Assembly (NCBI RefSeq): GCF_003001935.1
Contig: NZ_PVNG01000002.1
Coordinates: 186,001 to 250,000, forward strand
From: Nonomuraea fuscirosea
GTDB lineage: Bacteria > Actinomycetota > Actinomycetes > Streptosporangiales > Streptosporangiaceae
Direction of reading: 5' to 3'
Length of the DNA: 64,000 nt
Below the pieces are notes generated by a model, which saw nothing but the letters and a program-made list of their open reading frames with translations, had not been told where the DNA came from and ran no database searches. The first letter of the stretch is position 1. Every line of letters starts with the position of its first letter. A program made the position numbers and the translations under genes. Below are positions 21,323 to 57,372 of the stretch, piece by piece.

Positions 21323-21454
21323 CACCTGCAGCACCCACGGCAGTGCCGGCAGCACCCGGAGCATTTCGCACCGCCCGGGCATCTACATCAGCTGCGGCGG
21401 CTGATCCTGGTGGGTGCCGGTGCGACGTAGCACGGCATGTGGCATGCACGCGCG

Positions 21455-29878: not shown

Positions 29879-31116
29879 GCGGACGTACGCGTACGAGGTC
29901 GTCCTCCGGCTGCGGCGTACCACTCGCAGTCGTGAGCAGCTGCGCTGCGGCGGCTGGCTCGCACTGTGGCAGCGCGCCGCACGCTGAGCCCACCGGAGCT
30001 AGAGATGCGGCATGATCCGCACGGTGACGTCCCTCGGCCTGGCGTACTTTCCCCGCCTGCTCAGCCTGGTTCGCCCAGGTTGGCGATGTTCGACCAGATG
30101 GTTGCCCCACCACTTGGCAGGCACCACTTCTGGATGAAAGCCAGCATGCTTGGCTTCTTGCGTGTAGGGCTCGCCCTGCCATCTGCGCGGCTCGGTGAAG
30201 ATGGTCGTTCCCCGACAACGTGGCCTTCTTGGATCGGTGGGGTTTTCGGTCCCCAGGGGGCGGTTGATTAGGTAGAGGCCAGAGGTCGTCTCCGACGTGC
30301 AGTCGCTTGGAGACGGCGGATTCGTTTCCGACGTGCGATCACTTAGGAGACGGCGGGGTCGTCCTTTGCAGGAGTAATGCTGTGGGCGGGGCCCTGTCCG
30401 GTGTTGGTGGGTGTGGCCGTCTCCTGCGGAGGTCTTTCTGCCGCGTAGACGCGTAGGTTGCCTGTTGGGTGCGACGTTGGCGAGTTGCTGTGTGGGTTGT
30501 CTGCTGGGAGCGACGTTGTCGGGTGTGGCGTGGATTGTCTGCTGAGTGTCGACGACGCGTGAATACTGACCCCCAGGCGAGCGTCGTCAGAGGGTCAGGA
30601 TTCGGCCGTCGTTGACACTGAGGGGGCGACGCTGCCGGAGCGGTGCGGCTGTCTACAACGGAAGCGATCCTGTCGGGGCCGATGGACATGGTCGTCTTCC
30701 GCGAGAGCAACGACTTCTTCGCCGAGGGCGCTGTTCCTTCGAGCGGCGGATCAACGATTTGCTGCGCATCACCGGCCTGGGCGGATATGGCCGAGTGAGG
30801 AGGACCGGACCTTGTGCGGGACGCCATCCTCCACTCTCCGAGATGTCACCCTCCGCTCTTCCGGGACGTCATCGGCCACTTTCCCGAGATGTCATGCTCT
30901 GCTCTTCCGGGACGTCATCGGCCGCTCTGCGGGACGTCGGTCACCTTCTTCGTAACCGCATGCCCTTGCTCGAACATCGGCTGATGGGCGGCAAATGGTT
31001 GAAGGCGGATCCCATGTAGGAGCGCTGATGCGCCATCCCAGCGGAGAGGTCAGGTCTCAGGCCGGTGGCGATGTCGAGGAAATCGGAACGGGGCCAGATC
31101 CCGGGAAGGTTCATGG
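29879..31116. other. Gene-poor spacer with several short repeat arrays
   Basis: About 1.2 kb. Two adjacent 35-base units (30285-30319 and 30321-30356) each have GTCTCC/GTTTCC and GGAGAC ends that can form hairpins. Units like CTTCCGGGACGTCATCGGCC recur between about 30850 and 30925. A short coding-like stretch near 30640-30790 (plus strand) reads RRINDLLRITGLGGYGR in one frame, weakly like the end of a STAS domain, and may be a gene remnant. Confidence 0.4.
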
Positions 31117-31893
31117 TCAGGCGTCCCTTCGGCGGACCAGCCATGTGGCGGCGATCAAGGGAAGGGTCGCGTACGCGACCATGACCATGGCGGCAGCGGC
31201 AGGGGACAGGAGAGAGCCGTACACCGAGGTGGTGATGGTGTCTCCGGTGATCTCTCGGGGCAACGCGCCGATCATCAGTGATCCGAGGCGTTCACTCCAC
31301 GGCTCAGGGATCTTGCCGATGATCATAGGGATCACGTAGACGAGCCCCACGATGACGGCTATCGCGCCCGCGGCGGAGCGGATCAGGGCTCCGAATGCCG
31401 TCCCGAGTAGTGCGAAAACCGGCACCGTGAGACTGAGCGCGAGCAGAAGCGGCAGACGGTCCTGGAAGGGAGTGGTGTACGCGCCCGCGAAACGGTCGCC
31501 CAGCACCTCCCGGGACAGAAAGTAGGTGCCGAAGACCGTCAGCGCTCCGACGATCAGGCCCAGCGCGCCGACGATGAGGGACTTGGCGGCGAGGACCGGC
31601 CATCGCCCCGGAACGAGGGTCAGGCTGGTTCTGATCAAGCCGGTCGTGTACTCGGAGGTGATGGTGAGTGCGCCCAGAATCCCCATGCAGAGCTGGGGAA
31701 CCATGACGAGCACCTCCTCCAGGTCGGCGATCCTGGCGCGCGACCGTTGGGCGAGAGACGCCGTGTCGTACATGCCGGCGGCCATCACGGCGAGTGCGAG
31801 GCCCATGAGAATGGCGCTGAGTGCGAGCCCCAACACTAGATAAGTCGAGCGCAGCGAGCGGACCTTCAGCCACTCGGAAGTGAGGACACTCAT
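31117..31893 (-). CDS. ABC-2 type transporter permease
   Basis: The 258-residue protein has six predicted membrane segments and begins SVLTSEWLKVRSLRSTYLVLGL, the N-terminal signature of ABC-2 permeases that partner with a two-gene or three-gene exporter. SEYTTGLIRTSLTLVPGR is the conserved loop motif. It is the last gene of a four-gene operon; its ATG overlaps the stop of the preceding Gly-Ser-rich ORF (ATGA). With the other permease it probably forms a heterodimeric exporter of a peptide, antibiotic or lipid. Confidence 0.85.
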   Translation of the reverse strand: MSVLTSEWLKVRSLRSTYLVLGLALSAILMGLALAVMAAGMYDTASLAQRSRARIADLEEVLVMVPQLCMGILGALTITSEYTTGLIRTSLTLVPGRWPVLAAKSLIVGALGLIVGALTVFGTYFLSREVLGDRFAGAYTTPFQDRLPLLLALSLTVPVFALLGTAFGALIRSAAGAIAVIVGLVYVIPMIIGKIPEPWSERLGSLMIGALPREITGDTITTSVYGSLLSPAAAAMVMVAYATLPLIAATWLVRRRDA

Positions 31894-32405
31894 GCGCTCC
31901 TCCGTCGGCGGTCGTGCCAGTTCTTCGCGTTGTCGTTGGTGTTCTTGGGCCTGTTGGAGTTAGATCTGCCGCTGCCGCTGCCGCTGCCGCTGCCGCTGCC
32001 GCTGCCGCTGCCGCTGCCGCTGCCGCTGCCGCTGCCGCTGCCGCTGCCGGTTCGGGTTCCGGAACTATCGTTGGTGCTGTCGTCGGTGCCGTTGTTGTGG
32101 GTGTTTGTGCTGCTGCCGATGGCGTCCAGGCCCTCTGGCGAGAGCGGTTGGGCGTCGGCGCTCGTTCGGGGTGTGAAAGGGCGTGCGGCGGCTTTCGTAC
32201 TCGAGGCCGTGTCGTTGGTCGAGCTGGCGCTATGCATATCCGTTGAGCGGCTGAGAAGCGCGCGTCCGAGTTGCGTACAGGCAGCGAGGACGATTGTTCT
32301 GGTCAGGTGAGAGGTGATGGTCGGTGCGGAGGGACTGACGAGGCGGGGGAACGACGGCCAATAGCGGTCGCGGCCGTGTTCGGTGACAGAAGTGCGGGTG
32401 GTCAT
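31890..32405 (-). CDS. Gly-Ser repeat protein coupled to ABC permeases, unknown function
   Basis: A 171-residue ORF whose start overlaps the upstream permease stop (ATGA) and whose stop overlaps the downstream permease start (ATGA). The double overlap and GC-rich third positions support real translation. It begins MTTRTSVTEHGRDRYWPSFP, includes a modestly hydrophobic stretch around 30-50, then is Ser/Thr/Asn-rich, followed by about 14 Gly-Ser dipeptides from a CTGCCG hexamer array and a basic tail (KNWHDRRRRSA). No signal peptide, Cys or family motif is visible. It may be a disordered accessory subunit, a linker left by a gene fusion, or only a coupling device. Confidence 0.6.
   Translation of the reverse strand: MTTRTSVTEHGRDRYWPSFPRLVSPSAPTITSHLTRTIVLAACTQLGRALLSRSTDMHSASSTNDTASSTKAAARPFTPRTSADAQPLSPEGLDAIGSSTNTHNNGTDDSTNDSSGTRTGSGSGSGSGSGSGSGSGSGSGSGSGSGRSNSNRPKNTNDNAKNWHDRRRRSA
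31966..32049 (-). repeat. Fourteen perfect CTGCCG hexamers
   Basis: The plus-strand hexamer CTGCCG is repeated 14 times without a single variation from 31966 to 32049. In the minus-strand gene it reads Gly-Ser. Such perfection implies a recent slippage expansion or selection for length. Confidence 0.95.
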
Positions 32406-33166
32406 GCGTCTTTCCGCTTGAGTGCGTAATAGCCGATGGTGAGGGTGATGAGCGGATAGGCGAAGAGCACGGCCAGTGCGGCCCAAGGCGGTAGGTAACC
32501 GTCGCCGAGACGGGACGACATGCGCTCGCTTGCTATCTGCGGAACGAGATTCGGTAGGAGGAGTGCGGCGATACGCGTGTTCCACGGAGGTGGTAGGTAG
32601 TTGATCACGCCGGGCAGCACGAACAGCAAGGAGACGACCGACACGAGCGCTCCCGCTGTCGATCGCATGGCGGCGCCCAGGCCGAGCCCTACGAGCGCCA
32701 GTGCGGTCACCGACAGACCAGAGGCGAGGAGCATGGGCAGGTCGTTGGTGAAGGCGGACTCGTTGAAGCCGAGGTGGCGTTCGCCGGCGATGAGGCGGCT
32801 CGTCACGTAGGTCAGCAGGAGAACCGACATGGCGGTCGCCAACGTGGCCAGCGCGACGATGCCGGCCTTGGCCAGGAACAAGGTGCTGCGTCGGGGGACG
32901 GTGACGAGACTGGTGCGGATCATGCCGGTGGCGTGCTCGGAGGTGATCGTGAGCACGCCGAGCACCGCGAGGCTCATCTGGACGAGCGGCAGAAAGCCCT
33001 CCTCCGGAGCCGCAGCACGGAGCATGCCCCTTTCGTCGGCGAGGGCGCCCACGTAGACGGTCCAGGCGATGCCGAGGACCACCATCGCGGCGGCGGCGCC
33101 GATCGTGTGGAAGGTCGAGGCCACCGAGCGGAGCTTGACCCATTCGGAGGAGAGGACCGCCTTCAT
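32402..33166 (-). CDS. ABC-2 type transporter permease
   Basis: The 254-residue protein starts MKAVLSSEWVKLRSVASTFH and contains SEHATGMIRTSLVTVPRR, both matching the downstream permease, so the two are paralogues of about the same size. Six membrane segments are expected. Its ATG overlaps the stop of the ATPase gene by 4 bases, and its stop overlaps the Gly-Ser ORF. The operon order is ATPase, permease, Gly-Ser ORF, permease. Confidence 0.87.
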   Translation of the reverse strand: MKAVLSSEWVKLRSVASTFHTIGAAAAMVVLGIAWTVYVGALADERGMLRAAAPEEGFLPLVQMSLAVLGVLTITSEHATGMIRTSLVTVPRRSTLFLAKAGIVALATLATAMSVLLLTYVTSRLIAGERHLGFNESAFTNDLPMLLASGLSVTALALVGLGLGAAMRSTAGALVSVVSLLFVLPGVINYLPPPWNTRIAALLLPNLVPQIASERMSSRLGDGYLPPWAALAVLFAYPLITLTIGYYALKRKDA

Positions 33167-33882
33167 CGGGCCGCTCCGAATTGAACGCTGTCGGAGGTCA
33201 AGGCCATGTAGGCGTCTTCGAGCGAAGGGTAGCGCGCCGTCAGCTCGGCGACCGTGGCCTCGATGATGAGCTTGCCGCGGCCGACGATGACGATGCGCTC
33301 CGCGGTGAGCGCCATTTCGCTCATGAGATGGCTGGAGAGCAGGATCGTCCTGCCCTCGGCGGCCAGCGAGCGCATCAGGTCGCGGATCCAGCGCACCCCG
33401 TCGGGATCGAGGCCGTTGACCGGTTCGTCGAACATCAATATCCCTGGGTCTCCGAGTAACGCGACCGCGATGCCGAGGCGCTGCTTCATTCCCAGGGAGA
33501 ACCCGCCGACCCGTTTGCGGGCCACGCCCGCGAGCCCGACCTGCTCCAGCACCTCCACCACCCGCTTCGGGCCGATGTCGTTGGTGCGCGCCAGGCACAG
33601 CAGATGGTTGTAGGCGCTGCGCCCGCCATGGACGGCGCCGGCGTCGAGGAGGGCGCCGACCTCGCGCATCGGCTTGCGGAGAGAGGTGTAGCCGCGTCCG
33701 TTGACCAGGGCCTGGCCGGAGGTCGGTGCGTCCAGCCCGAGGATCAGACGCATCGTGGTCGATTTTCCCGCGCCGTTGGGACCGAGGAACCCGGTCACAT
33801 GGCCGGGCTCGACGGTGAAGGACAGATCGTCCACGGCGAGGGTGCCGCCGTAGCGCTTGGTGAGGTGTTGGAGTTCGATCAC
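33163..33882 (-). CDS. ABC transporter ATP-binding protein
   Basis: The 239-residue nucleotide-binding subunit has Walker A GPNGAGKST, the Q-loop region, signature FSLGMKQRLG (a variant of LSGGQ, as in many bacitracin/antibiotic exporters), Walker B ILMFDEPVNGLDPDG, and switch His in LLSSHLMSEM. It likely powers the two downstream permeases. GTG 33882 is the likely start (VIELQHLTKRYGG), as the ATG 32 codons upstream extends into the divergent promoter region. It is first in the operon, opposite the histidine kinase. Confidence 0.92.
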   Translation of the reverse strand: MIELQHLTKRYGGTLAVDDLSFTVEPGHVTGFLGPNGAGKSTTMRLILGLDAPTSGQALVNGRGYTSLRKPMREVGALLDAGAVHGGRSAYNHLLCLARTNDIGPKRVVEVLEQVGLAGVARKRVGGFSLGMKQRLGIAVALLGDPGILMFDEPVNGLDPDGVRWIRDLMRSLAAEGRTILLSSHLMSEMALTAERIVIVGRGKLIIEATVAELTARYPSLEDAYMALTSDSVQFGAAR

Positions 33883-33942
33883 GCCGTAAAGGATGCGGGA
33901 CGGCGGGCCGCCGGCGCGTCGGACCACGGTTCGAACTTCAAG

Positions 33943-33960
33943 GTCAACCCCTGGGTTGAC
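33943..33960. promoter_or_regulatory. Palindromic operator between ABC operon and two-component genes
   Basis: GTCAACCC (33943-33950) and GGGTTGAC (33953-33960) form a perfect inverted repeat separated by CT. It lies in the 113-base divergent region, 36 bases before the kinase start and 61 before the ATPase start. It is a good candidate site for the adjacent response regulator, inferred from position only. Confidence 0.5.
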
Positions 33961-33995
33961 GTGCGCGCACCGCTTCACCGGCTACGTTTCAACGC

Positions 33996-35189
33996 GTGGA
34001 CGACACGCACCCCTTCTTCGCCCGACGCAGGAGCCGTCGCGAGCTGATCGTGCTCGACGCGGTGGCGGCGCTGTGCTTCGCGTTCGTTGCTCTGACGGTG
34101 ACGGTTCATGCCACGGCGATACCCCCGTGGATGCGGATCGCCCTTCCTCTCGGCCTGGGGCTGCCACTGGCCCTGCGCAGACTGTGGCCGCTGACGGTCT
34201 TCTGCCTCACGCTCGCTCTCGCGGTCTTCGCCGCGCTCGCCGACGCCATGAGTTTCGCGTACCTGGCGCCGGCGTATGCTCTCTACGTCGTCGCCCTGTC
34301 CGACAGACGTGGGACGGTGGTTCCGACGACGGCCATCGGGGTGATCAGCCTGGTCACGGTGCTGGGCTTGGTGATGGCCGGCGCGCCGCGCGACCAGGCA
34401 CCCGACTGGCTGTTGCACCTCGACCAGCCGCTTCTCGGTATCGGCGCCCTCGGGGCGGCGTGGACCGTCGGCCGGGCCGTGCAGGAGCGCAGGTCCTTCG
34501 CCACCCGCGATGCGGAGCGGCTGGCGGCGCAGGCGGTGACAGAGGAACGGTTAAGGATCGCGCGTGAGCTGCACGACGTGGTCACGCACAGCGTGGGGCT
34601 GATCGCGGTCAAGGCGGGGGTCGCCAACCATGTCATGGCGACCAAACCGGAGGAGGCGCACGACGCGCTGCGTGTGATCGAGACGGCCAGCAGGAGCGCG
34701 CTGGTCGAGATGCGTCACCTGCTCGGCGTGCTGAGATCGACGGAGGTGCCCGAGCGGGTGCCCGCGCCTGGTCCGGCAGGCATTCGGGGGTTGGTGGGGC
34801 AGGCTCGGCTGGCCGGAGTCGAGGTTGATCTCGAGCTCGGCCCGTCGGAGGGCGATGACGTGCATGAGCGAGCAGCGGAGTGGGAGCGGTTGCCCGACGG
34901 TGTGGGGCTGTCGGTCTACCGCATCGTGCAGGAGGCCCTCACCAACGTCGTCAAGCACGCCGCGCCCACGCGTTGCCGTGTGTCGGTGGTCGCGGATGGC
35001 GAGGATGTCCGGATCGAGGTTGTGGATGACGGCCCGGGGAGGCGTGACTTGCCGTCTGACGGTGCTGGCCACGGTCTGATCGGGATGCGGGAGCGGGTCA
35101 CGCTGTACGGTGGCGCGTTCGAGGCCGGAAACGTAGCCGGACGGGGATTTCGGGTGTTCGCGAGACTGCCCTACCGGGAGGTCGCATGA
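33996..35189 (+). CDS. NarL-type sensor histidine kinase
   Basis: The 397-residue kinase has four or five membrane segments in residues 18-160 with almost no extracellular loop, then a HisKA_3 dimerisation helix with His193 in RIARELHDVVTHSV and an HATPase_c domain (EALTNVVKHA N-box, DDGPG, GHGLIGMRERV). Short-loop kinases of this type usually sense within the membrane and control an adjacent ABC exporter. GTG start at 33996. Its stop overlaps the response regulator start by 4 bases. Confidence 0.9.
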   Translation: MDDTHPFFARRRSRRELIVLDAVAALCFAFVALTVTVHATAIPPWMRIALPLGLGLPLALRRLWPLTVFCLTLALAVFAALADAMSFAYLAPAYALYVVALSDRRGTVVPTTAIGVISLVTVLGLVMAGAPRDQAPDWLLHLDQPLLGIGALGAAWTVGRAVQERRSFATRDAERLAAQAVTEERLRIARELHDVVTHSVGLIAVKAGVANHVMATKPEEAHDALRVIETASRSALVEMRHLLGVLRSTEVPERVPAPGPAGIRGLVGQARLAGVEVDLELGPSEGDDVHERAAEWERLPDGVGLSVYRIVQEALTNVVKHAAPTRCRVSVVADGEDVRIEVVDDGPGRRDLPSDGAGHGLIGMRERVTLYGGAFEAGNVAGRGFRVFARLPYREVA

Positions 35190-35827
35190 TTCGCGTAGTC
35201 GTGGCTGATGATCAGGCACTGCTCAGAGGCAGTTTCAGGGTGCTGGTCGACTCTGAGCCTGATCTGGAGGTCGTGGGAGAGGCGGCGACGGGAAGCGAGG
35301 CCGTCGCCCTCGCGATGAACGCGCGTCCGGACGTGGTCCTCATGGACGTACGCATGCCGGAGATGGATGGGATCGAGGCCACCCGTCGAATTAGAGATGT
35401 CTGCCGGGTGCTGGTAGTGACGATGTTCGACCTGGACTCTTATGTTTATGATGCACTGCGGGCGGGCGCGAGCGGATTTTTGTTGAAGGATACGCCGCCG
35501 GTGGATCTGCTTGCTGCTATCCGGGTGGTGGCGAGTGGAGAGGCGTTGCTGGCTCCGAAGGTGACAAGGCGGCTGATCGAGGAGTTCACGCGTACTCCCG
35601 CGGTGCCTCGGGTCAAGGGCCTGGACGGGGTCACCGAGCGAGAGCGTGAAGTGCTGACCCTGATCGCGCGGGGGCTGTCGAACAATGAGATCGCTGCGCA
35701 TCTGCAGGTGAGCCTGGCTACGGTGAAGACGCACATCACTCGGCTGCTGGCCAAGGTGGAGGCCCGAGATCGGGCACAACTCGTCATCGCAGCCTACGAA
35801 AGCGGTTTGGTCTCGACCGCAGGGTGA
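35186..35827 (+). CDS. LuxR/NarL-family response regulator
   Basis: The 213-residue regulator has a receiver domain with the acidic pair DD (8-9), phosphoacceptor Asp54 (VVLMDVRMPEMDG) and Lys in LLKDTPP, then a LuxR-type HTH (LTLIARGLSNNEIAAHLQVS, TVKTHITRLL). It is coupled to the kinase and probably regulates the divergent ABC exporter operon. Confidence 0.92.
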   Translation: MIRVVVADDQALLRGSFRVLVDSEPDLEVVGEAATGSEAVALAMNARPDVVLMDVRMPEMDGIEATRRIRDVCRVLVVTMFDLDSYVYDALRAGASGFLLKDTPPVDLLAAIRVVASGEALLAPKVTRRLIEEFTRTPAVPRVKGLDGVTEREREVLTLIARGLSNNEIAAHLQVSLATVKTHITRLLAKVEARDRAQLVIAAYESGLVSTAG

Positions 35828-50790: not shown

Positions 50791-53251
50791 CCTGCCGCAG
50801 GGCGCCGGAGGCCTTGATCACCAGCAGCGCCATGTCGTCCTGCGACGGCTCGGCGGCGAACGTCTCGACGGCGTGCCGCACCCGCTCGGCCACGGCGTGG
50901 GCGCTGAGGCCCGTGCAGCCCGACAGCAGCTCGGACAGCCCGTCGCCGTCGTCGAGCAGCCGGCCGCCGGCGCGGCGCTCGGTCACGCCGTCGGTCACGC
51001 ACAGCAGCACCTCCTCCGGCGCCAGCTCGAACGTCTCCACGTAGAATCTGGCGCCGGACTCGATGCCGAGCAGCAGCTGCGGGGTCGCCATGGTCTCGAC
51101 CTCGCCGCTGGTGCGCAGCAGGAGAGGCGGAGGGTGGCCGGCCGAGGCGATCGTGCACAGTGCGCCGCCCTGCGGCAGCGGGGTCAGCTCGCCGCACAGC
51201 AGGCTGAGGAACCTGCCCTCGTCGCCCTCGTCGAGCAGCGCCTGGTTGAGCCGGTCGAAGATGTCGGCCACCGTGTAGTGCTCCTTGGCCAGCAGGCGTA
51301 CGGCGTGCCTGGCCAGGCCGGTGACCGCGGCCGCCTCCGGGCCGCTGCCGCACACGTCGCCGAGCGCGAAGCACCAGTGGTCGGCCACCGTGAACAGGTC
51401 GTAGAAGTCGCCCCCGACGTCGGCGCCCTCCTCGGCCGGCTCGTAGACCACCGCGGACTCCAGACCCGGCATGGGGGCCACCCGCATCGGCAGCAGGCTG
51501 CGCTGCAGCACGCGGGAGGTGGTCGCCTGCCTGGCGTACAGCATGGCCGTGTGCAGGTTGAGCGCCACCAGGCGGCACAGGTCCGCCAGCAGGTCGGCCA
51601 GCTCCAGCGGCAGCGTCGGGTCGGAGCGGCCGATCACCAGCGCGCCGTGCGACCGGCCCTGCGTCAGCAGCGGGAAGGCCAGCACCGTCTCGGGGCCCAC
51701 CGGCCAGGCCACCTCGTGCAGCGCCGTGCGGGGGATGGCGGGCAGCGACTTGCGCAGCGCGGAGTTGTGGCTCTCCTCGCTGTGCCAGACGTGGGCGAGC
51801 CTGGTCATGCCGGCCAGATCAGTCAGGTAGACCGCCGCCCACGTGGCGATCTTCGGCACCACGAGCTGCGCCGTCAGCGCCGCGATCAGCTCCTCGTCGT
51901 GCACGCCGGCCAGCAGCTCGCCCGCCTCGGCCAGGAACGACAGCCGCCCCCGGTGCGCCCGGTCGCGCTCGGCCAGCCGCTCCCGCTGCACCGGCACCGC
52001 CACCTGGTCGGCGATGTGCTGCAGGCTGACCGTCAGCTCCTGGTCGAAGCGCGACGGCTGCGCGGCCGTGACCACGAGATAGCCGATCACCTCGCCGGAC
52101 ACCAGCAGCGGCGCGCACGCCAGCGACCTGGCGCGCAGCTGCTCGGCCAGCTCCACGTCCGCGCCGAGCAGGTCGTCGATCAGCGTGGGCGCCTTGCGGT
52201 CGGCGCAGAACACGCCCGTGGCCAGCACCCCGACCAGCCCCGCCGTGGCGCCCGCGCCCGCGGCCACGCCGAACTGGCCGCCGGTGTCGGCGGCCAGCAG
52301 CACGTAGGAGGCGTCGCCCGCGCTGGACACCTGCACGATCTGGGCGATCGTGCTGAGCAGCTCGGCGAGCGGCATGTCGTGGTCGATCAGGTCCTTGATC
52401 CGCCGGCCCGCCTCCCTGCGCAGCGGCTGGGGCGGCGGCGTCAGGACGTGGCGGTGGTCGCAGGCCACGATCATCCAGATCGTCCTGCGCTCTCCGGCGT
52501 GGCCGCGGGTGCGCAGGTGGGAGACGTAGACGGGGACGAGCCTGCCGTCGCGGTGCCGCATCCGCGTCTCGCCCCGCCAGCGGCCGAGGCCGAGCGTGTC
52601 GGCCAGCGACAGCGCGTACGGGCCCGAGCCGCGCCAGGCCACCAGCTCCTTCAGCGACCGGCCCACCACCAGCTCCGCCGGCCAGCCGAGCAACTCGGCC
52701 GCCTCGGAGTTCCACGACTCCACCACCCCGTCGAGGTCGCAGACCACCACGCCGACGTGCAGGGTCTCCAGCGGCGCCACGACGGGGGCGGCGACCAGGC
52801 CCGTCGGGCCCGGCAGGATCTCCTGCTGCTCGCAGCCCTCGCCGATCTCCAGGCGCACCCAGACCCGCTTGGCCGTCCTCGTGTACGTCACCCCCCAGGC
52901 GTCGGCGAGCATCTGGGCCAGGGCCAGGCCGCGGCCGGAGGTGGCCGGCTGCCCGTCGTCGTCTTCGGCGGGGGCCGCGACGCCGGAGATGGTCCGGCTG
53001 GGGTGGTGGTCGTCGACCTCGATCTCCAGCCTGGCCGGGCTCGCGTCCACGTCGAGCCGGCAGGTCAGCTCCACACCGGTGCCGGCGTGCACCACCGCGT
53101 TCGTGACGAGCTCGCTGGTCAGCAGGACGGCGTCCTCGGCGAGGTGGCTCAGGCGCCACTCGCCGAGCACCTGGCGGACGAACTTGCGGGCGTGCGCCGG
53201 TGCGTGGGGAGTGCCGTCGAAGGCCGTGCTCGACACCTTGGTCGTGTCCAC
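50783..53251 (-). CDS. osaC: OsaC-like anti-sigma kinase / PAS / GAF / SpoIIE phosphatase
   Basis: In Streptomyces coelicolor OsaC returns SigB activity to baseline after osmotic stress and lies divergent from osaAB, the same layout as here. The 822-residue protein has an RsbW-like HATPase at the N-terminus (SELVTNAVVHAGTGVEL, SGRGLALAQML), a PAS domain (about 160-270), one or two GAF domains (about 300-600) and a PP2C/SpoIIE phosphatase (about 625-815: GGDFYDLFTV, GDVCGSGPEAA, VTDGVTERR, SQDDMALLV). GTG 53251 is the likely start. Gene symbol by synteny and domain order. Confidence 0.82.
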   Translation of the reverse strand: MDTTKVSSTAFDGTPHAPAHARKFVRQVLGEWRLSHLAEDAVLLTSELVTNAVVHAGTGVELTCRLDVDASPARLEIEVDDHHPSRTISGVAAPAEDDDGQPATSGRGLALAQMLADAWGVTYTRTAKRVWVRLEIGEGCEQQEILPGPTGLVAAPVVAPLETLHVGVVVCDLDGVVESWNSEAAELLGWPAELVVGRSLKELVAWRGSGPYALSLADTLGLGRWRGETRMRHRDGRLVPVYVSHLRTRGHAGERRTIWMIVACDHRHVLTPPPQPLRREAGRRIKDLIDHDMPLAELLSTIAQIVQVSSAGDASYVLLAADTGGQFGVAAGAGATAGLVGVLATGVFCADRKAPTLIDDLLGADVELAEQLRARSLACAPLLVSGEVIGYLVVTAAQPSRFDQELTVSLQHIADQVAVPVQRERLAERDRAHRGRLSFLAEAGELLAGVHDEELIAALTAQLVVPKIATWAAVYLTDLAGMTRLAHVWHSEESHNSALRKSLPAIPRTALHEVAWPVGPETVLAFPLLTQGRSHGALVIGRSDPTLPLELADLLADLCRLVALNLHTAMLYARQATTSRVLQRSLLPMRVAPMPGLESAVVYEPAEEGADVGGDFYDLFTVADHWCFALGDVCGSGPEAAAVTGLARHAVRLLAKEHYTVADIFDRLNQALLDEGDEGRFLSLLCGELTPLPQGGALCTIASAGHPPPLLLRTSGEVETMATPQLLLGIESGARFYVETFELAPEEVLLCVTDGVTERRAGGRLLDDGDGLSELLSGCTGLSAHAVAERVRHAVETFAAEPSQDDMALLVIKASGALRQVR

Positions 53252-53346
53252 TCTGCGTCCTAGAACATCACTCGATGTGGCAGTTCGGTCACTCTCAGAG
53301 TGGCAGACTGATGCCGTTGATGCCTCCAGTTGTGAAGAAGGCCGCC

Positions 53347-56300
53347 ATGGTCGCGCAGTTGGAATCCCCCTACGCACATGGACCGCTCCATCCGGCGGAT
53401 CTCCGCCCGCTGCTCGTGGCCCTGCGCGGGCTGCGTGACGGCAACTTCAAAGCCAGGCTCGAACTGCCCGGCGATCCCCTCCTGGCGGAGCTGGCGACGA
53501 CGCTCAACCAGGTCCTCGACCGCAACGAGCACCTCTCCGGCGAGCTGACCCGCCTGCGCACGGAGGTGGCCAGGCGCGGGCGGCTCGACGAGCGGCTCAG
53601 CCCCAGCCCGGGCACCGGCGGCTGGGCGGTCAACGTGGCCGCCGTCAACACCCTCATCGACGCGCTCGTCATCCCCGCCGCCAAGGCCACCAGGGTGCTC
53701 AACGCGGTCGCGGACGGCGACCTGTCCAAGCGGGTCGACCTCCAGGAGGACGACCGGCCGCTGCGCGGCGGGCTGCAGCTGATGGGCAAGGCGGTCAACC
53801 GCATGGTCGAGCAGCTCGCGCTGTTCTCCGGCGAGGTGACGCGGGTGGCCCGCGAGGTCGGCACCGAGGGCAGGCTCGGCGGCCGGGCCAAGGTGCAGGG
53901 CATGTCGGGCAGCTGGCGCGACGTGACCGAGGCCGTCAACGCCATGGCCGGGCGGCTGACGGCCCAGGTGCGCGACATCGCGGTGGTGACCACCGCCGTG
54001 GCCAGGGGCGACCTGACCAGGCAGGTGACCGTCGAGGCCACCGGTGAGCTGCTGGAGCTCAAGCTGACCGTCAACACGATGGTCGACCAGCTCTCGGCGT
54101 TCGCCAGCGAGGTGACCAGGGTGGCCCGCGAGGTCGGCACGGAGGGTCAGCTGGGCGGCCGGGCCGAGGTGAAGGGCGTGCTCGGCACCTGGAAGGACCT
54201 GACCGACAACGTCAACTTCATGGCCTCCAACCTGACCACGCAGGTGCGCTCGATCGCCCAGGTGACCACGGCGGTGGCCAACGGCGACCTGTCGAAGAAG
54301 ATCACCGTGGACGCGCGCGGGGAGATCCTCCAGCTCAAGGACACCATCAACACGATGGTGGGGCAGTTGTCGGCGTTCGCCGACGAGGTGACGCGGGTGG
54401 CCCGCGAGGTCGGCACGGAGGGCCGGCTGGGCGGTCAGGCGCAGGTGCGGGGTGTGAGCGGGGTCTGGAAGGACCTGACCGACAACGTCAACTTCATGGC
54501 CTCCAACCTCACCGAGCAGGTGCGCGACATCGCGCAGGTGGCCACCGCCGTCGCCCAGGGCGACCTCAGCCGCAAGATCAGTGTGGACGTCAAGGGCGAG
54601 ATCCTCCAGCTCAAGGACACCGTCAACACGATGGTGGGGCAGTTGTCGGCGTTCGCCGACGAGGTGACCAGGGTGGCCCGTGAGGTGGGCACGGAGGGCC
54701 GGCTGGGCGGTCAGGCGCAGGTGCGGGGTGTGTCGGGGGTGTGGAAGGACCTGACCGACAACGTGAACTTCATGGCCTCCAACCTGACCAGCCAGGTACG
54801 CAGCATCGCCATGGTCACCACCGCCATCGCCAACGGCGACCTGTCCAAGAAGATCACCGTGGACGCCCGGGGCGAGATCCTCCAGCTCAAGGACACCATC
54901 AACGCCACCGTGGACAAACTGTCGGCGTTCGCCGACGAGGTGACGCGGGTGGCGCGTGAGGTGGGCACGGAGGGGCGGCTGGGCGGTCAGGCGCAGGTGC
55001 GGGGTGTGAGCGGGGTCTGGAAGGACCTGACCGACAACGTCAACTTCATGGCCTCCAACCTCACCAGCCAGGTACGCAACATCGCCCAGGTCGCCACCGC
55101 CGTCGCCAACGGCGACCTGCTGAAGAAGATCGACGTGGACGCCCGGGGCGAGATCCTGGAGCTCAAGACCACGATCAACACCATGGTCGACACGCTGTCC
55201 TCGTTCTCGTCCGAGGTGACCAGGGTGGCCCGCGAGGTCGGCTCGGAGGGCAGGCTGGGCGGTCAGGCCGAGGTCGAGGGCGTCTACGGCACCTGGGAGC
55301 GCCTGACCAAGAACGTCAACCAGCTGGCCGGCAACCTCACCACCCAGGTCCGCGCCATCGCCGAGGTGGCCAGCGCCGTCGCCCAGGGCGACCTCAGCCG
55401 CTCGATCAGCGTCGAGGCCAAGGGCGAGGTCGCCGAGCTGAAGAACAACGTCAACCTCATGGTCGCCAACCTGCGCGAGACCACCCGCGCGAAGGACTGG
55501 CTGGAGAGCAACCTGGCTCGCATCGCGGGCCTCATGCAGGGGCACCGCGATCTGGTCGAGGTCGCCGACCTGATCCTGCGCGAGCTGACGCCGCTGGTCA
55601 GCGCCCAGTACGGCGCCTTCTTCCTGGCCGAGGCCGCCTCCTTCGACGGCTCGCTGGCCTTCATCGCCGGCTACGGCGCCGCCCACGACGTGCTGCCCGG
55701 CCAGGGCACCGCCGGGCCCGGGCTCATCAGGCAGGCGGCCCTGGAACGCAAGCGCATCCTGCTGGGCGACGTGCCGCCCGGCTACATCAAGGTCCACACG
55801 GGGCTCGGCGAGGCCGCTCCGGCCAGCGTGGTGGTGCTGCCCATCGTGTTCGAGGACAAGGTGCTCGGGGTGATCGAGCTGGCCTCGTTCAGCCGGTTCA
55901 GCGACGTGCACCTGGCCTTCTTCGACCAGTTCGTGGTCACCATCGGCGTGGCCATCAACACCATCATCGCCAACGCCCGCACCGAGGCGCTGCTGTCGGA
56001 GTCGCAGCGCCTGGCCCAGCAGCTCCAGGGCCGCTCGGACGAGCTGCAGCGCCAGCAGGCCGAGCTGCGCAGGTCGAACGCCGCGCTGGAGGAGAAGGCC
56101 CACCTGCTGGCCACCTCCTCCCGCTACAAGTCGGAGTTCCTGGCCAACATGTCCCACGAGCTGCGCACACCGCTCAACAGCCTGCTCATCCTGGCCAGGC
56201 TGCTGGCCGACAACCCCGGCGGCAACCTGTCGGAGCAGGAGGTCGAGTTCGCCACCACGATCCACAACGCCGGCAGCGACCTGCTCCAGCTCATCAACGA

Positions 56301-57372
56301 CATCCTCGACCTGTCCAAGATCGAGGCCGGGCGGATGGACGTGCGGCCTGAACGGCTGCCGCTGAGCAAGCTGCTCGACTACGTGGACGCCACCTTCCGC
56401 CCGCTGACCGTGGACCGGGGGCTCAAGCTGGAGATCGAGGTCACCCCCGGCACCCCCGTCCAGCTCTACAACGACGAGCGCCGGCTGCAGCAGATCCTGC
56501 GCAACCTGCTGTCGAACGCGGTCAAGTTCACCTCCGCCGGCGAGGTGCGCCTGGTCGTCTCCGTCGCCGGGGACCGGCCCGACCCCGAGGGCCGCCCGAT
56601 GATCGCGTTCGCGGTCAGCGACACCGGCATCGGCATCGCCGCCGACAAGCTGCCGGCCATTTTCGGCGCCTTCCAGCAGGCCGACGGCACCACCAGCCGC
56701 AAGTACGGGGGCACCGGCCTCGGCCTGTCGATCAGCAGCGAGATCGCCCGCCTGCTCGGCGGCGAGATCCACGCCGTCAGCGATCCCGGCCTGGGCAGCA
56801 CGTTCACCCTGTTCGTGCCGGCCGGCCGGGCGACGGCCACGCTCGCGGACGAGCTGGAGTGGGCGGAGGAGCCGATGCCGGAGACCCTCACGGCCCCGGC
56901 CGGGTGGCCGGCCGCCGACGGCGACGACCCGTGGCGCTCCACGCTCATCCGGTTGAAGGACAGCCCGGCCGGGGAGATCTTCGCGGGGCGGCGGGTGCTC
57001 ATCGTGGACGACGACATCCGCAACGTCTACGCCCTGACGCACGTGCTCGGCCGCCTCGGCATGGAGATCGTCTACGCGGAGAACGGCAGGGAGGGGCTGG
57101 AGGCCCTCGAACGCGAGAAGGACATCGCCCTCGTCCTCATGGACGTGATGATGCCCGAGATGGACGGCTACGAGACGCTCACCGCCGTACGCCAGACGCC
57201 CGCCTTCGCCGGCCTGCCCATCATCGCGCTCACCGCCAAGGCCATGCCGGGCGACAGGGAGAAGACGATCGCCTGCGGAGCCTCGGACTACGTGCCCAAA
57301 CCGGTGGACGTGGACCAGCTCCTGGAGGTGATGCGGGGGTGGCTCGCGGGTGAACGGGAGGCCGGCGGATGA
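53347..57372 (+). CDS. osaA: OsaA-like hybrid histidine kinase with HAMP repeat array
   Basis: The 1341-residue protein has no obvious membrane segment. An N-terminal HAMP-like region leads into six units of 92 residues beginning [13 protein letters not shown], a cytosolic HAMP array, then a GAF domain (about 745-900), HisKA with His937 ([11 protein letters not shown]), HATPase (NAVKFT, GTGLGLS) and a C-terminal receiver with Asp1266 ([12 protein letters not shown]). OsaA in Streptomyces is the osmotic-stress hybrid kinase beside osaB and ftsK. ATG 53347 follows AAGAAGG. The stop overlaps osaB by 4 bases. Confidence 0.85.
53833..55488 (+). repeat. Six exact-period 276-bp HAMP repeats in osaA
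   Basis: GAGGTGAC-type unit starts fall at 53833, 54109, 54385, 54661, 54937 and 55213, exactly 276 bases apart. Units 3-5 are nearly identical at DNA level, units 1, 2 and 6 more divergent. The period is 92 codons. Confidence 0.95.

Follow-up and report, generated by a model that had tools for sequence, protein, structure and literature searches.

A candidate translational relay: an open reading frame of shifting product between two ABC-2 permease genes in Nonomuraea

Known coupled junctions and the Nonomuraea fuscirosea locus

MIRUs are short, seemingly mobile repeats present in many mycobacteria, and a MIRU open reading frame (ORF) can be joined to its neighbour by a 4-nt overlap (available part of the review PMC12548453); the senX3-regX3 MIRU units measure 53 and 77 bp (available part of PMC4213456). 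In Salmonella, the ORF mgtQ, lying between mgtC and mgtB within an operon, favours translation of the transporter gene that follows it by making that gene's ribosome-binding site accessible; as described in the accessible text of PMC8092293, mgtQ has 8 aa, its start lies 51 nt downstream of mgtC within a gap of 219 nt, and the identity of its Asp and Glu codons is important. For stop-start coupled pairs, the accessible text of PMC10666635 reports that reinitiation almost vanishes with stop and start about 20-40 nt apart, and that in E. coli reporters a distance of 38 nt lowered reinitiation by 80-90% for two gene pairs and left none for another; a study cited in the available part of PMC12548453 found spacing of up to +25 nt to be without impact.

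Here we describe an ORF of Nonomuraea fuscirosea located between two ABC-2 permease genes, P1 and P2, within a 64,000-nt stretch of DNA that we refer to as the window, and we argue that it is probably a translational relay, i.e., an ORF that selection does not keep for the protein it encodes. A MIRU is the nearest known kind of element, and the proposed relay is similar but lacks a dispersed repeat. Like a MIRU ORF, the window ORF is coupled to a neighbouring gene by a 4-nt overlap; unlike a MIRU, the window spacer has no dispersed copies (a DNA search of its own genome returned the spacer itself and two weak partial matches), the P1-P2 gap at this locus is 508 nt rather than 53-77 bp as for the senX3-regX3 units, and Nonomuraea spacers vary between species, reaching 755 nt. 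We rejected the assignment of the window spacer to the MIRUs because dispersed copies are absent and the length differs. With mgtQ, as far as the accessible text describes it, the locus shares an ORF in an intra-operon gap followed by a transporter gene, but the relay frame covers the whole spacer and its codons seem free. With stop-start (ATGA) coupled pairs of the kind covered in the accessible part of PMC10666635, it shares the junction type and the supposed restart, and differs in having two junctions and a filler frame instead of a single junction; judged by its sequence, the locus would fall among termination-reinitiation coupled pairs, which are recognised by overlapping stop and start codons. 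Among the titles listed by our literature search, none described relay ORFs that lack a repeat and sit at split overlaps, a weak negative since subscription journals were thinly covered.

The ORF, its junctions and its repeat array

The operon runs ATPase, P1, ORF, P2, with a histidine kinase and a response regulator encoded divergently (Table 1). This is the order of an ABC-2 exporter operon, an ATPase (PF00005, E = 5e-26) followed by ABC-2 membrane proteins; P1 scores above the cut-offs of PF12730 and PF12698, and P2 matches the same families below their cut-offs (best PF12679, 26.7 of 27.2 bits). The original prediction, a real ORF of 171 aa with ATGA overlaps at both ends, lying between two ABC-2 permease genes, is borne out. 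A terminator scan returned two terminator-like sites, both on the strand opposite the operon.

Table 1. Positions of the relay ORF, its junctions and the surrounding genes in the window
Feature	Position	Strand	Remark
P2, downstream ABC-2 type permease	31117..31893	-	
Second junction, ATGA: P2 start and relay ORF stop	31890..31893	-	
Relay ORF, 171 aa	31890..32405	-	171 codons, from the ATG at 32405 to a stop that ends at 31890; no conserved product
GGAGG, P2 Shine-Dalgarno-like site within the relay ORF	31899..31903	-	read from sequence
Hexamer array free of mismatches, 14 copies (13 complete Gly-Ser pairs)	31966..32049	-	
First junction, ATGA: P1 stop and relay ORF start	32402..32405	-	
P1, upstream ABC-2 type permease	32402..33166	-	missing or cut short in at least 10 of the 54 Nonomuraea genomes
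ABC transporter ATPase, same operon	33163..33882	-	
Divergent sensor histidine kinase (context)	33996..35189	+	
NarL-like response regulator (context)	35186..35827	+	

The 14 perfect Gly-Ser units first described for this ORF hold at the DNA level, where the unit GGCAGC is present in 14.0 copies with 100% matches; read in the ORF frame, the array gives 13 complete Gly-Ser pairs, then Gly-Arg. It is the sole site with at least five units in the window genome, and the word (GGCAGC)5 is present in 9 of 54 Nonomuraea genomes. The perfection of the array at the DNA level suggests recent slippage, and a hexamer unit would be incapable of breaking the frame. Other repeats are present in the window: several degenerate tandem arrays with units of 23-46 bp lie downstream of P2 (30286-30938), and further arrays lie near 21450, 36530, 40310 and 42640. 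At 53795-55465, a 276-bp tandem repeat of 6.1 copies, perhaps encoding repeated domains, lies inside a 1390-aa ORF (53200-57372) that is overlapped on the other strand by a 1260-aa ORF.

P1-P2 junctions across Nonomuraea and beyond

We sought P2 in 54 Nonomuraea genomes, one per species, and read the corresponding stretches for 51; in G009, G026 and G032 the matches included no full-length P2 orthologue, and these genomes were left out. The P1-P2 junction was measured in 39 genomes, with G040, a direct overlap, added later. Of these 39 pairs, 10 overlap directly by 4 nt, and in the other 29 a spacer of 19-755 nt separates the genes. Intact P1 is missing from 10 more genomes (absent in 9, a remnant in 1), in which the ATPase precedes P2, and a search of these 10 genomes and of G006, where P2 lies close to the contig start, found nothing matching P1 at E 1e-50 anywhere. 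The spacer count thus leaves aside the 10 junctions at -4, the 10 genomes without intact P1, and G006, G009, G026 and G032. Relatives in which the permease genes overlap with no ORF between them, a finding that the original prediction had set against itself, are accordingly present in 10 of 39 pairs, alongside the 10 genomes without intact P1. Since P1, one of two paralogous permeases, is absent from nine genomes and a remnant in another, P2 seems to suffice as the permease of the transporter in these species.

The link to P2 takes several forms. In the 10 genomes without intact P1, ATPase and P2 are joined by an overlap in 4, a relay ORF in 2 (71 aa in L074 and 93 aa in L076) and an in-frame extension in 2, with none of these in the remaining 2. 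Counted by hand, the 50 junctions that precede P2 (the 39, G040 and the 10 without intact P1) comprise 15 overlaps, 18 relays, 4 in-frame N-terminal P2 extensions and 13 that fit no such kind, among them L015, which falls short of P2 by 4 nt; with 13 of 50 junctions unlinked, coupling is dispensable. On a tree of P1 and P2 the relay label takes 8 changes, at least 5 of them forced, and the direct-overlap state takes 5, at least 3 forced, so that direct and spacer states interleave; direct overlap is likely the ancestral state. Outside the genus we read nine records with a P1 match, and in two of these a second permease adjoins P1, 42-43% identical to P2 and of unsure orthology, joined by a -4 overlap in one (L095) and by an in-frame extension in the other (L094).

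Frame and product in the P1-P2 spacers

We defined a relay as a frame running from an NTG that overlaps the P1 stop to 4 nt into P2. Such a frame is present in 16 of the 29 spacers against 4.9 expected from dinucleotide-keeping shuffles with free phase (P = 9e-7, ignoring kinship), and the gap lengths fall into the three phases as 7, 18 and 4, the 18 being in the relay phase. With one spacer per clade (13 clades) the mean is 7.3 relays, with a median P of 0.0017 (5-95%: 2e-5 to 0.022), or 0.0098 once the window is removed. The clade groups, drawn from the tree of P1 and P2, and the criteria for inclusion (limits on the gap, NTGA at either end) were set in the course of the analysis. Among spacers of at least 100 nt with the right phase and the start kept, 12 of 12 are open against 5.5 expected (P = 2e-5); without the window this is 11 of 11 (P = 1.3e-4), and 7 of 7 with one per clade (P = 7e-4). 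Of the 9 spacers incapable of a relay, whether through a wrong phase or a lost start (L010 and L056), none is open against 2.2 expected, and by phase alone the frame is open in 12 of 14 versus 0 of 7. Five control frames of the relay-capable spacers are at expectation (P = 0.20-0.96); in the incapable set the control frame rev1 deviates (open in 4 of 9, P = 0.002), so single frames can stray that far. When phase is ignored, frame A does not stand out among the 21 spacers of at least 100 nt (open in 12, compared with 11 for frame A+2), i.e., the signal is visible only with phase considered.

The spacers, taken with 30-nt flanks, were also compared for indels. The relays of L028 and L029 differ by 54 substitutions and 0 indels, and those of L019, L023 and L026 by 22-40 substitutions and 0 indels; L022 differs from L026 by indels of 6, 9 and 3, and from L019 by indels placed by the aligner as 6, 5, 4 and 3 (5 + 4 = 9). 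Between the broken frames of L005 and L010, whose 78% identity is comparable to that of the relay pairs, there are 7 indels, and the lengths of 5 are indivisible by 3; between those of L012 and L017 there are 18. In one relay spacer (L007) a 29-nt unit is repeated about 5 times, as judged by eye, and the frame is open; since 29 is not a multiple of 3, the unit is read in three frames. The translational coupling through the ORF that was first proposed thus draws comparative support, through the 16 relays in 29 spacers and the 12 of 12 open frames, and probably holds as far as sequence comparison can speak to it.

After the relay, the next most likely reading, though we consider it unlikely, is that an ordinary T-poor spacer is open by chance, that the ATGA motifs are relics and that P2 uses its own Shine-Dalgarno site. 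For the window spacer alone, the chance of a frame that is both open and rightly phased is 0.1375 x 1/3, about 5%. The claim that ATGA overlaps at both ends make accidental openness unlikely stands in a weaker form than was made: since many relatives have a direct ATGA or GTGA overlap, both motifs would most simply be relics of one split junction, and what has to be explained is the length modulo 3 and the missing stops rather than the ATGA motifs. Relay and broken spacers alike are T-poor and C-rich, which lowers the frequency of stops, and the window's nearest clade of five holds 2 relays and 3 broken frames. The GC content by codon position in the ORF before the repeat (0.52/0.66/0.75) is unlike that of seven neighbouring genes (0.63-0.75/0.41-0.50/0.72-0.89). 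P2 has its own GGAGG 5 nt 5' of its start, and this site counts against the need for a relay; in one local RNA fold, a prediction run without a control, it is paired in a stem, and folding comes easily to GC-rich RNA. Against chance opening stand the excess of relays in the genus, the tie between openness and phase, and the contrast in indels between relay and broken spacers.

A third reading, which we regard as improbable, takes the ORF as a real small protein, an accessory or exported transporter peptide that is disordered and evolves fast; that the frame is retained in many species would fit it. The ORF has no recognisable family, as originally noted: Pfam gave nothing above cut-offs, NCBIfam gave 0 hits, and PHROGs gave three weak matches over the Ser/Gly-rich part (best 7.5e-6) to families of unknown function. 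A search with the ORF protein, scoring up to 66 candidates in each genome, found matches in at least 15 of 54 genomes (its own included), mostly over the Ser/Gly-rich part, and among the matches listed none lies at a P1-P2 junction except the window's; a search for relatives in plasmids gave no match. Relay products vary in length between 8 and 171 aa, spacer DNA aligns clearly only within small groups, and for the window's spacer the set compared contains no close homologue. The search for an equivalent ORF in related operons that was first suggested thus found the frame, in 16 of 29 spacers, and no product that they have in common. AlphaFold2, run without an alignment, gave the window ORF a mean pLDDT of 50 and a pTM of 0.21. 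A lipobox-like LAAC, read from the sequence at residues 40-43, would favour a small protein, but for a lipoprotein signal the hydrophobic stretch of the ORF presumably lacks the length and lies too deep in the protein.

The dN/dS ratios of seven pairs of relatives' spacers point both ways, five pairs at 0.52-0.69 (all from one homology group, the ratios being worked out by hand) favouring a small protein and two at 0.87 (L028/L029) and 0.90 (L023/L026) speaking against it; shifted control frames, available for the 4 of 7 pairs of equal length, gave 0.40-1.77, and the flanking P1 and P2 genes 0.04-0.32. With ratios of 0.52-0.90, weak protein constraint may act on the spacer product. The roles first suggested for the product fared less well. 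An accessory subunit is unlikely, given 29 spacers without a common product and the absence of the ORF in the 10 of 39 direct-overlap pairs; a substrate-like peptide is unsupported; and a linker that once fused the permeases is likewise unsupported, although some relatives do carry in-frame N-terminal extensions of P2.

Very improbable is a regulatory spacer with its own P2 promoter, as described for the MIRU-bearing senX3-regX3 of M. tuberculosis (available part of PMC4213456): several species have long spacers, but a promoter scan, ill suited to some actinomycete promoters, found no sigma-70-like site, Rfam gave zero matches in 31000-34100 at E 0.1, and the phase is left unexplained.

Split overlaps in other operons and the relay model

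Other 4-nt overlaps were followed through 400-kb syntenic blocks of six Nonomuraea genomes, a sample that is independent of the P1-P2 spacers, yet gives a weaker result. In 863 comparisons starting from a 4-nt overlap, 651 junctions were kept within 9 nt, 161 carried an insertion and 51 overlapped more deeply; the insertions trace to 68 distinct events in 38 gene-pair families. A strict set (n = 26) dropped cases with the start or TGA lost, a second junction without NTGA, gaps below 13 or above 600, and the P1/P2 pair. Relays, of 6 to 60 aa, make up 12 of its 26 events where 6.0 would be expected (P = 0.0066); taken by family, they make up 9.0 of 17 against 4.2. The gap phases are 13 (relay), 10 and 3, the last being depleted (P = 0.011), and given the phase 12 of 13 are open against about 10.6 expected, which is not above expectation; the deviation is thus limited to the phase and to the joint count. 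Two relays in the window genome (gaps of 58 and 64 nt) resemble tandem duplications across a GTGA junction, but as duplication was judged plain in about 3 of 12 relays, a general origin by duplication is not established.

The relay reading, which these comparisons lead us to prefer, would run as follows. In an ancestor, P1 and P2 would have overlapped by ATGA or GTGA, with ribosomes finishing P1 restarting at P2. Inserted or duplicated DNA may have split this junction in the present lineage, and tandem repeats, the GGCAGC array among them, would later have enlarged the insert. Growth could be tolerated while the spacer stayed open and its phase brought the ribosome from the P1 stop onto the P2 start, with two restarts, from P1 to the relay and from the relay to P2. 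Because reinitiation falls with distance, such a filler frame would avoid the loss, and a ribosome reading through the spacer may also open a base-paired ribosome-binding site of P2. The sequences themselves show the architecture, a product that shifts between species and more open frames in the right phase than expected; from these we infer that the relay is translated, that ribosomes restart at each junction and that there is a selective reason, which could be the dose of P2 or protection from Rho, a general idea taken from the available part of a review (PMC12548453).

More tentatively, we suggest that Nonomuraea, and perhaps other GC-rich actinomycetes, may contain a class of genes selected for the frame alone, in which stop-start overlaps split by duplication or repeat growth retain their inserts as relay ORFs (6 to 171 aa), at many operon junctions, wherever insert length and freedom from stops allow ribosomes to pass; these ORFs may also serve as seeds for new proteins. 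If true, these junctions would be a natural experiment on restart coupling under selection in operons, and would show that DNA can be added between coupled genes so long as the frame is kept. Such a class would also explain orphan small ORFs without a conserved product in actinomycete operons, and would offer both a direct test of the distance over which ribosomes can be relayed and a route to new genes.
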